A DNA stretch of 64,000 nucleotides from Clostridium sp. (GTDB lineage: Bacteria; Bacillota; Clostridia; Clostridiales; Clostridiaceae). The translations under genes and the position numbers were made by a program. Below, in pieces: positions 50,061 to 54,235 of this stretch. The stretch spans positions 33,349 through 97,348 of the forward strand of contig NZ_JAJFUC010000045.1 in assembly GCF_021372645.1 (NCBI RefSeq), written 5' to 3'. The notes beneath the pieces are model-generated. The model was not told where the DNA came from, made no database searches, and worked only from the letters and a program-made list of their open reading frames with translations. The first letter of the stretch is position 1. Each line of letters opens with the position of its first letter.

Positions 50061-50540
50061 CTAAATTTCAATATTTTCAACAGAAGCTATGCTTTGAGAG
50101 GAAATCCCAAGCATTTCACCAGTAAAACCAAGGCCTTCTTCTGTAGTAGCCTTAATATTTATCTTATTAATATCTATATCAAGAGCTTTTGAAATATTTT
50201 CTCTCATACATTGAATATATGGTAACATTTTAGGTTTTTGAGCTATTATTGTAGCATCTATATTATTTATTATATAACCAGATTTGAAAACTAGCTTACT
50301 AGTCTCTTCAAGTAATACAATACTTGATATACCCTTGAAAGTATTATCTGTGTCTGGAAAGTGCTTACCAATATCTCCAAGGGCACAGGCTCCTAATAAG
50401 GAATCCATTATAGCATGAAGAAGTACATCTGCATCAGAATGACCTAATAATCCTTTATCATATGGAATTTCAACTCCACCCAAAATTAATTTTCTATTTT
50501 CAACTAATCTATGAACATCATATCCTAGTCCAACTCTCAT
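50061..50540 (-). CDS. ispF: 2-C-methyl-D-erythritol 2,4-cyclodiphosphate synthase
   Basis: 159 residues. MEP-pathway enzyme forming the cyclic diphosphate. The family start '[12 protein letters not shown]', the zinc ligands in '[19 protein letters not shown]', '[13 protein letters not shown]' and the C-terminal '[19 protein letters not shown]' are complete. It is not next to ispD here and appears to be a single-gene unit. GAGGTGA precedes the ATG on the minus strand. Confidence 0.96.
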
Positions 50541-51054: not shown

Positions 51055-51185
51055 AAATAATCTCCAAAATATTGATTTGAAATTAGGCACATAAAGGTTT
51101 ATGGATTAGTGGATTTATATGCTATAATAACATAGTATGAATAAGTTATATAAAGGGTTAATCTTTTTAAAGAGGTGTTAATTAT

Positions 51186-52220
51186 ATGGAAAATTTGAGC
51201 TTTAATAAAGATAAATATGTTTTTGTTTCACTGCCATCAATGCTAGTAATAGGACAGTCAGCAGAAAATAATAGAAATAAACAGATAGCTTTATTTTTAA
51301 ATGAATTAAACATGTATAATGTTTTATATAAAGATTTATTAAACTTTTCGCTTAAAGAAAATGATAGAAATATAGCTTTAAATATAGCTTACTACATAGC
51401 TGATAATGATGAGCTACTTAAAATAATAATTCAGAAAAAAGATTTACCTATATCAAAGCTAAGTAAATTAACTAAGATTAAACCTAAATATATAGAAAAG
51501 TGTAGAGATTATATTATAGCTTATTATATAATATTAACTAATCCTAATTATAGACATATAAAAGATTATTTTAGAATAAAACTAAGAGAAGATAATAATG
51601 TAACGAGTATTTCAAATAAAAATCAGAATTCATATAAGGGTTTAGTATTAAAATCATTAAATAAAGCTGCTTACATAGTGACTTCTAAAGGCAAGTTTTT
51701 AAAAATAAAAACCAATAGTAAAGCAAATATTGGGGAGATATGTGAAGGTAAGAAAAGTAAAACTCTAAGAAACTATAGAATACATATTTCTATTTTACTG
51801 GTTATACTTATATTAATTGGAAGTGGTATTATTATTGAATACAGAAGGGTTCAAAGTATAATTGTTATACAGGCAACTTCTAATATAAAAATACATGTTA
51901 ATAAATTTAATAAAGTTATATATGCATATTCACCTACAGATAAAGGAAAAGAACTTGTTACAAATACTAATATTTTGAATAAAGATATTGATGAAGCCAT
52001 GGCAGAAACATTTGAATATGCATTAAACAATGAAATGTTAGATTTAAGCAAGAAAACTTTGGTAACAATAAATGGACAAGCGATAAAATATGGATTACTT
52101 GCTAAAACCAATAAATTTATATCTGAAAATAATATACCTATAATTATAAATAATTCAGGAAATCAACAAAAGCTACCACAATATGTAACTGAAGATAAAG
52201 AAAATGAAACAAAAAAGTAA
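51186..52220 (+). CDS. Membrane protein joining a sigma-I-like HTH to an RsgI anti-sigma domain
   Basis: 344 residues. The cytoplasmic part (about 70-135) contains 'LPISKLSKLTKIKPKYIEKC' followed by RDYIIAYYIIL and an RHIKDYF end. This is the pattern of the C-terminal DNA-binding domain of SigI factors (LP-x-x-x-L, KTIER-RKYIIA, YL+DYI). Next comes an RsgI N-terminal-type beta unit (about 150-185, 'KAAYIVTSKGKFLKIK'), one membrane helix (about 202-222) and an external RsgI domain ('IKIHVNKFNKVIYAYSPTDKG', 'NKDIDEAMAETFEYALNN' in part). So a sigma-like domain and its usual anti-sigma are in one chain. AGAGGTG precedes the ATG. No separate sigI gene is adjacent. Confidence 0.7.
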   Translation: MENLSFNKDKYVFVSLPSMLVIGQSAENNRNKQIALFLNELNMYNVLYKDLLNFSLKENDRNIALNIAYYIADNDELLKIIIQKKDLPISKLSKLTKIKPKYIEKCRDYIIAYYIILTNPNYRHIKDYFRIKLREDNNVTSISNKNQNSYKGLVLKSLNKAAYIVTSKGKFLKIKTNSKANIGEICEGKKSKTLRNYRIHISILLVILILIGSGIIIEYRRVQSIIVIQATSNIKIHVNKFNKVIYAYSPTDKGKELVTNTNILNKDIDEAMAETFEYALNNEMLDLSKKTLVTINGQAIKYGLLAKTNKFISENNIPIIINNSGNQQKLPQYVTEDKENETKK

Positions 52221-52244
52221 CTCTCCATTGAGAGTTACTTTTTT
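52211..52244. terminator. Bidirectional terminator between convergent genes
   Basis: AAAAAAGTAACTCTC and GAGAGTTACTTTTTT form a perfect stem with a four-base loop. It ends the RsgI-like gene and, from the other side, the deacetylase gene, overlapping both 3' ends. Confidence 0.95.
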
Positions 52245-53176
52245 GCTTTAGATAAAATTTCTTTAAATGTATTCATATCATATTTAGAACTAATATAGAT
52301 CCTATCAAGTTTAAGAGGATTATCGTCCCTATCTGAAAGACCTCTTTTAGTAGTAAATCCCAAAGTATAACCAGCTTCTTTGGCTGCTTTTATGCTATCA
52401 TCATTAAAATCCCCGAAAGGATAGGCAATTGAGTCAACTTTTTTACCCATTATTGATTCTAAAGTTTGCTTTGACTTTTTTAATTCTGTGAGCTGTTCAC
52501 CATAAGTCAATTTATCAAGATGAAGGTGATTAACAGTATGACTTTGAATATCTATGCCATAATTAGACATTTGATTTATAGCATCTTTTGATAAATAATA
52601 AGTTCCATCTAAGTTAGAGGTTATGCAAAATATAGTAGCCACCATATTGAAATCCTTTAATATTGGGAAAGCATTATAATAGTTATTCATATATCCATCA
52701 TCAAAAGTAATAACGATGCTTTTATTTGGAATAGGGGAGTTGTTTAATAAATACCCTTTAAGATTACTTAAAGTTAATGTTACATAACCTTTATCTTTTA
52801 TGTACTTAAGTTGTGCCTTAAGCATTTCAGGAGTTATCGTCACTTCATTAGCCGCAGATTCATCAACAGAATGATAATATAACACTGGGACACCTCTATT
52901 ATCATTGACTAAATTAGCTTGATCAAAATATCGTATATCTTGAATTATACTTTTATCATTATTGCTATTTTCTTGTATTTTGGAGTCATTTTCAGATTTA
53001 AGCTGGTCTATAGTATCTGCATTATATGCTGTGATTTTTTTAGAAGAAATATTATTATGTATTAGATATCGACTTAATATAATTATCAAGATAATAATTA
53101 AAAAAGTTAAAATGTTTTTATTTTTTGAAATACTGTTTTTAGAAGTATTTCTTATTGAGTCATTATTTCTAGACAT
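52235..53176 (-). CDS. Polysaccharide deacetylase (NodB domain), membrane-anchored
   Basis: 313 residues. A signal anchor ('ILTFLIIILIIILSRYLIH', about 23-41), a linker, then the NodB domain: 'VPVLYYHSVDESAANEVTITP', the metal aspartates in 'SIVITFDDGYMNNYYN', the histidines in 'IDIQSHTVNHLHLDKL', and 'SIAYPFGDFNDDSIKAAKEAG' near the end. It should act outside the membrane on N-acetylated glycans, probably peptidoglycan or exopolysaccharide. AGGAGG lies about 15 bases before ATG, longer than ideal. The gene is divergent from the DUF3298 gene. Confidence 0.9.
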   Translation of the reverse strand: MSRNNDSIRNTSKNSISKNKNILTFLIIILIIILSRYLIHNNISSKKITAYNADTIDQLKSENDSKIQENSNNDKSIIQDIRYFDQANLVNDNRGVPVLYYHSVDESAANEVTITPEMLKAQLKYIKDKGYVTLTLSNLKGYLLNNSPIPNKSIVITFDDGYMNNYYNAFPILKDFNMVATIFCITSNLDGTYYLSKDAINQMSNYGIDIQSHTVNHLHLDKLTYGEQLTELKKSKQTLESIMGKKVDSIAYPFGDFNDDSIKAAKEAGYTLGFTTKRGLSDRDDNPLKLDRIYISSKYDMNTFKEILSKAKK

Positions 53177-53491: not shown

Positions 53492-54235
53492 ATGAGTATC
53501 ATAGCAGATATAACAGGATTAGTAATCATAGGTTCCATGTTGTGCACAGCTTATCCACAACAATTGTGTATAATTAGTGAAATACAAAGTGAAAATAAAT
53601 TTAAACTTGTGGAAAAGTCTATAATTAAAAATTTAGATTATTTAAAAGAAGACATAAAAATACCTCAATTAGTAAATGGAAATGATGAGAAAAAGATAAA
53701 TTTAATAAACAATGTAATTAATAGGGGGATTTTGACCAAAGTAGAAGAAGCTGAGAAAACTTCAAAAGAATACTTTGGAGTGTTAGGACAAGAAAAGCCA
53801 ACATTCCCATATGAAATTTATTCAAAATATACAATAACTGAAGATAATAGTTTACTTCTTAGTTTATATAATGATTATTATGAATACTTAGGAGGAGCTC
53901 ATGGAATGACAATAAGAACTTCTTATACAATAGATAAAGATAAAGAAAGTTTAATAACATTAAAGGAATTATTTGTTCAAGGATATCCTTATAATGATAT
54001 AATTAATAAAAAGGTAATGGAAGAGATTAGCAAAAACCCTGAGAATTATTTTGATGCAGGAAATGTATTTAAGGGAATTAGTGAAAATCAAACCTTTTAT
54101 ATAAAAGGTGATGATCTTGTAATTTATTATCAATTATATGATATAGCACCTTATGTATTTGGAATTCCTGAATTTAAAATTCCTCTAAAATTATTTGATA
54201 AAAATTATGTTTACTATAAAAGTTTGAGTATTTAA
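53492..54235 (+). CDS. DUF4163/DUF3298 domain protein (RsiV/PdaC N-domain type)
   Basis: 247 residues. A short hydrophobic N-terminus ('IADITGLVIIGSMLCTAYP') looks like a signal or anchor. The DUF4163 segment ('KIPQLVNGNDEKKINLINNVI') is followed by DUF3298 with its signature 'YEYLGGAHGMTIRTSYTIDKD' in part, then 'LITLKELFVQGYPYNDIIN' and the C-terminal beta 'DLVIYYQLYDIAPYVFGIPEF'. The same domain pair forms the extracellular half of the anti-sigma RsiV and the N-terminal half of the deacetylase PdaC. Here it is separate but next to a NodB deacetylase gene. GGAGGTG precedes ATG. Confidence 0.85.
   Translation: MSIIADITGLVIIGSMLCTAYPQQLCIISEIQSENKFKLVEKSIIKNLDYLKEDIKIPQLVNGNDEKKINLINNVINRGILTKVEEAEKTSKEYFGVLGQEKPTFPYEIYSKYTITEDNSLLLSLYNDYYEYLGGAHGMTIRTSYTIDKDKESLITLKELFVQGYPYNDIINKKVMEEISKNPENYFDAGNVFKGISENQTFYIKGDDLVIYYQLYDIAPYVFGIPEFKIPLKLFDKNYVYYKSLSI

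Follow-up and report, generated by a model that had tools for sequence, protein, structure and literature searches.

The analysed DNA, called the window below, is a stretch of 64,000 nucleotides from Clostridium sp. An ORF encoding a 344-aa protein with an ATG start, which a previous sequence-only reading had placed at 51186..52220 on the + strand, was studied together with its flanking genes. The ispF gene (50061..50540, - strand; PF02542, 228 bits) is located upstream of it on the opposite strand, as in 61/61 genus loci, and a polysaccharide deacetylase gene (52235..53176, - strand; PF01522, 110 bits) is convergent with it. A terminator-like hairpin between the ORF and the deacetylase gene (52207..52248) was detected by a scan on the - strand, and on the + strand a T run follows it too. 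The gene of a PdaC/DUF3298 protein (53492..54235, + strand) lies further downstream, where its homologue was found in 44/61 genus loci. Upstream of the ORF, a putative extended -10-like element common to close relatives, TGCTATAAT (51120..51128, + strand), was read by eye and is absent from the list produced by the consensus scan.

The protein begins with the motif FxKxKYxF(S) (residues 6-14; 51201..51227, + strand), visible in the alignment of 89 fusions and containing a short strand (residues 11-13) in the structural model. Residues 24-128 (51255..51569, + strand; helices 24-126 in the model) correspond to positions 114-218 of the 219 positions of TIGR02895 (7.7e-19), with nine more SigI models in agreement and a match to 8i24_F at 2.3e-10. 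The SigI portion is the entire C-terminal domain (SigI_C), wider than the segment quoted in the sequence-only reading. Its total TIGR02895 score of 68.3 bits lies below the curated cut-off of 185; the full SigI encoded by the same genome also remains below this value (171) but passes NF006170 (321.8, cut-off 271). No sigma region 2 was recognised in the window fusion, either by Pfam (PF04542 at E <= 1) or as a TIGR02895 match before position 114, as the previous reading had noted. The RsgI_N beta domain (residues 150-188; 51633..51749, + strand) was identified by PF12791 with 34.8 bits (cut-off 25). A long helix with a hydrophobic stretch (residues 194-220; 51765..51845, + strand) was taken as a membrane helix on the basis of the sequence and the model, with no dedicated membrane predictor. 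It is followed by a predicted external domain of the RsgI periplasmic type (residues 224-323; 51855..52154, + strand), in which RsgI_M (PF23750) matched residues 233-313 weakly (22.4 bits, just below the cut-off of 25.3).

The nearest solved proteins by sequence were SigI6 and SigI1. A profile of 19 fusions matched SigI1C (6ivu_B, 5.8e-12) and RsgI1N (6ivs_A, also in 6ivu, 2e-4), which are the two partners of one solved complex, SigI1C-RsgI1N. An AlphaFold2 model of the fusion based on 19 sequences (mean pLDDT 81.8, pTM 0.56) was compared with known folds using Foldseek. SigI1C of 6IVU (6ivu_B, E 2.2e-4) was the sole fold match below E 0.001. The external domain of the model matched the periplasmic domains of B. 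subtilis and C. thermocellum RsgI proteins (8t9n, 8hdj, 8heq and 8her) with E of 0.0025-0.027 (0.0025-0.0053 for 8t9n and 8hdj) and prob 1.00, and RsgI_N matched RsgI1N (6ivs) with E 0.13 and prob 0.99. A viral structure library gave nothing at E <= 0.001. The window ORF is a genuine fusion of SigI_C and RsgI in one predicted membrane protein; the claim to this effect in the sequence-only reading agrees with the TIGR02895, PF12791 and fold matches, and the profile and AlphaFold comparisons with the SigI C-terminal domain that it had proposed returned TIGR02895 and 6ivu_B.

A profile search of genomes for the same fusion, also proposed earlier, revealed it in 65 of the 68 genus genomes, that of the window being one of the 65, and the three genomes lacking it are small drafts with a completeness of 59, 78 and 90%. 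The 64 genus orthologues beside the window's are each encoded by a single ORF of 330-409 aa, which excludes chance, a frameshift or an assembly error as the source of the fusion. In the family, 206 genomes were searched, 180 of which gave some match at 1e-10, ordinary SigI or RsgI counted in, and the fusion was found in at least 17 of the 46 genera, the window's genus and others. Sixteen other genera contributed 24 aligned fusions, the ORFs of which were checked singly; the fusion of G188 was confirmed later. The counts given below refer to 89 family fusions (65 from the genus and 24 from other genera), with G188 and L209, which is outside the family and keeps Asn-Pro, left out; alignment A1 was built without one genus protein, L051. 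Overlapping genome samples at the order (225), class (341) and phylum (398) levels showed no further family members among the 5 to 10 top-scoring candidates considered for each genome, in lists cut at their E-values. Of 18 named loci obtained in another scan, 16 carry the label Clostridium, one Eubacterium multiforme and one Bacillota bacterium. The fusion is a core protein of the genus and not a local oddity.

The Ka/Ks values of whole fusions, calculated for 12 close pairs, ranged from 0.09 to 0.30, indicating purifying selection. For SigI_C alone, values of 0.05-0.28 were obtained (12 pairs), and the short RsgI_N stretch (39-40 codons) gave noisier values, up to about 0.8 in one pair. The conserved family residues are spread over all parts of the fusion. 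The family-specific ones include Y11 (84/89) and F13 (89/89) in the N-terminal segment, as well as N62, L65, Y113 and Y122, present in 83, 87, 84 and 86 of the 89 fusions, respectively. G152, G169, G183 and N239 were each found in 89/89 family fusions and D269 in 87/89, the three glycines being common in canonical RsgI also. A covariation test on 71 sequences remaining after thinning did not favour a contact between SigI_C and RsgI_N, as pairs between SigI_C and the external domain, which are unable to touch, scored as high (best z 6.5 vs 4.8).

Residues 229-232 of the window fusion (QATS; 51870..51881, + strand) are aligned opposite D-I-N-P of canonical RsgI, the Asn-Pro of which we take to be the place of the self-cleavage cut. 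At this site, Asn-Pro was absent from the window fusion and from 89/89 family fusions and was kept in 37/40 RsgI proteins. Among 90 aligned fusions, only that of L209, outside the family, had Asn-Pro at the site; in the L063 fusion, an Asn-Pro occurs a few residues upstream of it. According to the available part of PMC12203970, canonical RsgI signalling starts with self-cleavage of the periplasmic domain.

The DNA-binding surface was compared at 13 positions corresponding to the DNA-contact residues of SigI6 listed in the available part of PMC10575876. The net charge over these positions had a median of +6 (0 to 7) in 41 SigI proteins (two SigI pieces shorter than 200 aa, both from L217, were left out), 0 (-3 to 3) in the 65 genus fusions and +1 in the 24 other-genus fusions, with +1 in the window fusion. 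The difference between SigI and genus fusions gave a Mann-Whitney p of 2e-16, which is descriptive only as the sequences are related. Position 222 of SigI6, which in the same part of PMC10575876 adjoins the DNA contacts and is not named as a contact, is K/R in 38/41 SigI and D/E in 59/65 genus fusions, and the minor-groove loop is short by one residue in 65/65 genus fusions. The window fusion retains four of six basic DNA-facing residues (K57, K101, K105 and R107) vs a genus mean of 1.8. The loss of the essential His171 of SigI6 was considered as sole proof of lost DNA binding and rejected, since this position is His in 18/41 SigI and Gln in another 18/41; the charge over the 13 contact positions was used instead. 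Judging from the alignment, the DNA-contact surface is neutralised across the family, less so in the window protein.

No sigI gene adjoining the window fusion was found, in agreement with the sequence-only reading, and the window genome carries an ordinary, full sigI-rsgI pair on another contig. An intact full-length SigI was detected in 30 of the 68 genus genomes (E <= 1e-14), and all 30 carry the fusion too. The remaining 35 of the 65 fusion-bearing genomes showed no intact SigI at this threshold, some of them being drafts and two (G006 and G015) being listed as one contig. The threshold is lenient, as even the decayed SigI of L212 reached 1.6e-23 with the same model. The RsgI_N counts in the genus genomes agreed in outline with the SigI counts. 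Two remnants were noticed alongside these counts. A degenerate sigI with three in-frame TAA codons is present in a genome which keeps the fusion (G021:C238:14277-14837), and a strong RsgI_N match (54.6 bits) in a 103-aa frame of G006, a genome without intact SigI (G006:C1:929138-929257), may represent an orphan or truncated RsgI.

The origin of the fusion was examined in FastTree trees based on short alignments and drawn from the midpoint root. All fusions except L209 were set apart from the canonical pairs, with a support of 0.98 on the SigI side and 0.77 on the RsgI side. In the RsgI tree, the short RsgI proteins of L212 and L222 (genus g26), which lack Asn-Pro, and the second RsgI of L214 were placed beside the fusions (0.73). 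In the SigI tree, the SigI proteins of the unfused L212 and L222 pairs fell inside canonical SigI, not beside the fusions. In L212 and L222, sigI and rsgI remain separate genes and occupy the same locus as the fusion, with ispF, sortase and deacetylase genes within 9 kb. Their SigI proteins are full-length but weak (83.6 and 102 bits vs 178 for L214), and region 2, recognised by Pfam in L210 and L214 (27.8 and 29.9 bits, cut-off 24), was not recognised by it in either. Because region 2 of intact SigI itself scores low in Pfam (24.2-29.9 bits, cut-off 24), its absence from the unfused pairs is modest evidence of decay. Among four genomes of genus g26 that were searched, G160 and G161 have the unfused pair lacking Asn-Pro, the pair of G159 keeps Asn-Pro and G162 gave no match.

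The unfused decayed pairs in two genomes probably represent the pre-fusion state. The simplest order compatible with these sequences would be that self-cleavage was lost while region 2 was decaying, and that region 2 was then lost and the genes joined; the two-gene state of L212 and L222 may also be a later re-split of a fusion. An in-frame arrangement of the sigI stop and the rsgI start was considered as the route of fusion and rejected, as 15 pairs were in frame and 18 were not (first possible start codon).

The gene neighbourhood was counted in 61 genus loci and 24 other-genus loci (85 in total), with L019, L020, L021 and L023 left out due to their short flanks. In 28/85 loci (21/61 in the genus and 7/24 in other genera), the fusion gene is flanked on the same strand by a sortase gene upstream (within 250 bases) and an RluF-type pseudouridine synthase gene downstream (within 400 bases); both are absent from this position in the window's own clade. 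A pseudouridine synthase gene was found near the fusion in 53/85 loci, and the two synthases tested both passed the RluF model. The four sortases tested passed the general sortase model and no class model, the best matches being class E, class C and SrtD, all below the cut-off. A deacetylase homologue occurs near the fusion in 33/61 genus loci; in 31 of these it is downstream and encoded on the opposite strand. The sequence-only reading had seen in the deacetylase an envelope-type neighbour fitting a sensing role. The gene is indeed there, but since it lies on the opposite strand, converges with the fusion and is near it in only 33/61 genus loci, it provides weak evidence on function, and the neighbourhood as a whole is a weak pointer. 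The PdaC/DUF3298 protein (53492-54235, + strand) resembles, from RsiV position 89 on, the anti-sigma-V factor RsiV (74.7 bits, cut-off 250).

The best explanation of these data, to which we give about an even chance, is that the fusion is a captive sigma/anti-sigma pair retired from its former role and now a non-transcriptional envelope protein. As its relatives suggest, a sigI-rsgI operon that once stood at the ispF locus would have lost self-cleavage and region 2, and the leftover SigI C-terminal domain would have been joined to RsgI. SigI_C would most likely be docked in cis onto RsgI_N on the cytoplasmic side of the membrane, an arrangement suggested by 6IVU and the fused order, and the membrane helix would carry the predicted non-cleavable RsgI-type domain outside. 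Such a protein would no longer direct transcription and would most likely serve envelope proteins as a scaffold or sensor in the membrane, without proteolysis. What selection maintains would be the ability of the external domain and the SigI_C/RsgI_N unit to make protein-protein contacts; such contact at the membrane is preferred over transcription as the selected function because the sigma/anti-sigma interface is what remains. The envelope role is suggested by the predicted topology and the neighbours. It is also conceivable, with somewhat less than even confidence, that the genus as a whole turned a sigma/anti-sigma couple into one core membrane protein unrelated to promoters, with the interface kept for envelope signalling or scaffolding; in this view, cleavage would have been lost and region 2 would have been decaying before the genes were fused.

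The strongest rival is a membrane-tethered modulator of RNA polymerase, because RsgI and the flap tip share one surface of SigI_C; the available part of PMC10575876 describes RsgI and the flap-tip helix as binding it via conserved, partly overlapping hydrophobic residues. SigI_C, unable to open promoters, would bind the beta flap-tip helix and be gated in cis by RsgI_N, and its exposure by a signal would inhibit polymerase or retain it at the membrane. The conserved core of the SigI_C domain and its purifying selection fit this scheme, but with the self-cleavage motif gone no release mechanism is apparent, and we regard it as unlikely. A one-piece membrane-tethered regulator, as the sequence-only reading had suggested, would bind DNA through SigI_C at the membrane or after release by some protease. 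The full helix-turn-helix domain is present, the four basic residues named above stand at contact positions in the window protein, and the His that is essential in SigI6 is so often replaced in SigI itself that its loss alone is no proof. Against this, the median contact charge has fallen from +6 to 0, position 222 has changed from basic to acidic, one residue of the minor-groove loop is gone from every genus fusion, and both region 2 and the cleavage motif are missing; a role in DNA binding is decidedly unlikely, even with the milder neutralisation of the window protein.

The other role suggested earlier, a decoy for SigI encoded elsewhere, or more broadly a titrant of SigI or RsgI, is compatible with the 30 genus genomes, that of the window among them, in which an intact SigI is present as well. 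The 35/65 fusion genomes without one led us to drop the SigI decoy as the general function of the family. Compared with SigI, the fusion is better conserved, and titration is very unlikely. A sporulation-specific membrane protein would fit the presence of spoIVA in 65/68 genus genomes and the scores of the neighbouring deacetylase to the spore models PdaB and PdaA, which are far below the cut-offs. A link through spoIVA was rejected, as a gene found in 65/68 genomes does not discriminate; moreover, G043 and G052 have spoIVA and no fusion, G032 and G061 have the fusion and show no spoIVA (all four being drafts), and no recognised sporulation gene is among the identified neighbours, making this role highly improbable. 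Descent from parts that lost the cleavage motif, the contact charge and region 2 could also have left a non-functional relic, but such an outcome is scarcely credible for a protein with an open frame, low Ka/Ks and invariant residues in 89 fusions of 17 genera and with a presence in 65/68 genus genomes.

In its parts, the captive pair favoured here resembles the SigI-RsgI pair of B. subtilis and C. thermocellum, with which it shares the SigI C-terminal domain, RsgI_N, the membrane helix and the periplasmic fold, and it joins the two partners of complex 6IVU in a single chain. Unlike that pair, it has no region 2, no Asn-Pro and no C-terminal sensor domain, shows a lowered DNA-contact charge and is present without an intact SigI in 35/65 genus genomes. 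SigO-RsoA is a split sigma pair, similar to the fusion in that sigma regions are apart; the fusion is not known to have a stand-alone region 2 partner. According to the available part of PMC12203970, C. thermocellum has, next to eight pairs, the individual RsgI9. This membrane protein is also of the RsgI type and lacks a paired sigI, whereas the fusion has its own SigI_C at the N-terminus and no C-terminal sensor domain. ECF41 sigma factors, described in the available part of PMC3426412 as active and as carrying a fused regulatory domain as a C-terminal extension, also unite sigma and anti-sigma-like domains within one chain, but the fusion has no functional sigma region 2 and has a membrane helix. 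A C. perfringens anti-sigma protein in NELoc-2 was considered and set aside, as the available part of the source places it together with a sigma factor at a different locus. No description of a SigI_C-RsgI fusion was found in the open-access literature, subscription papers being outside the scope of the search, and the available parts of PMC6056542 and PMC4711584 describe no such fusion; within this scope, the system is as little described as had been supposed. If the favoured reading is true, a traceable sigma/anti-sigma pair has been retired from transcription and yet remains under selection, with apparent two-gene intermediates alive at the locus. In annotations, the fusions, which carry RsgI_N, may be named anti-sigma factors, but in 35/65 genus genomes there is no intact SigI on which they could act. 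As a core protein of Clostridium that is often encoded beside genes for a sortase or for wall modification, the fusion lends itself directly to genetic study.

Other arrangements of the same domains were noticed in further genomes. In G343, immediately upstream of rsgI, sigI is divided between two ORFs of 97 and 120 aa (L217:4025-4692, - strand), which may be a broken gene or a sequence error. The order sigI, rsgI with Asn-Pro kept and a second short RsgI without Asn-Pro (194 aa) was observed in G141 (L214:3325-5538, + strand). A phylum-level relative listed as one contig (G879) contains a single 711-aa ORF (L230:1292-3427, + strand) in which SigI with region 2 (PF04542, 26.8 bits) is followed by RsgI (RsgI_N, 54 bits; RsgI_M, 110.6 bits) with Asn-Pro kept; it is apparently a full-length one-piece sigma/anti-sigma protein, seen in one genome and with a sequencing error at the junction being possible. 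A second, independent-looking SigI_C-RsgI fusion is encoded in G308, a class-level relative (L209:3683-4975, - strand), where Asn-Pro is kept and most of region 2 is gone.
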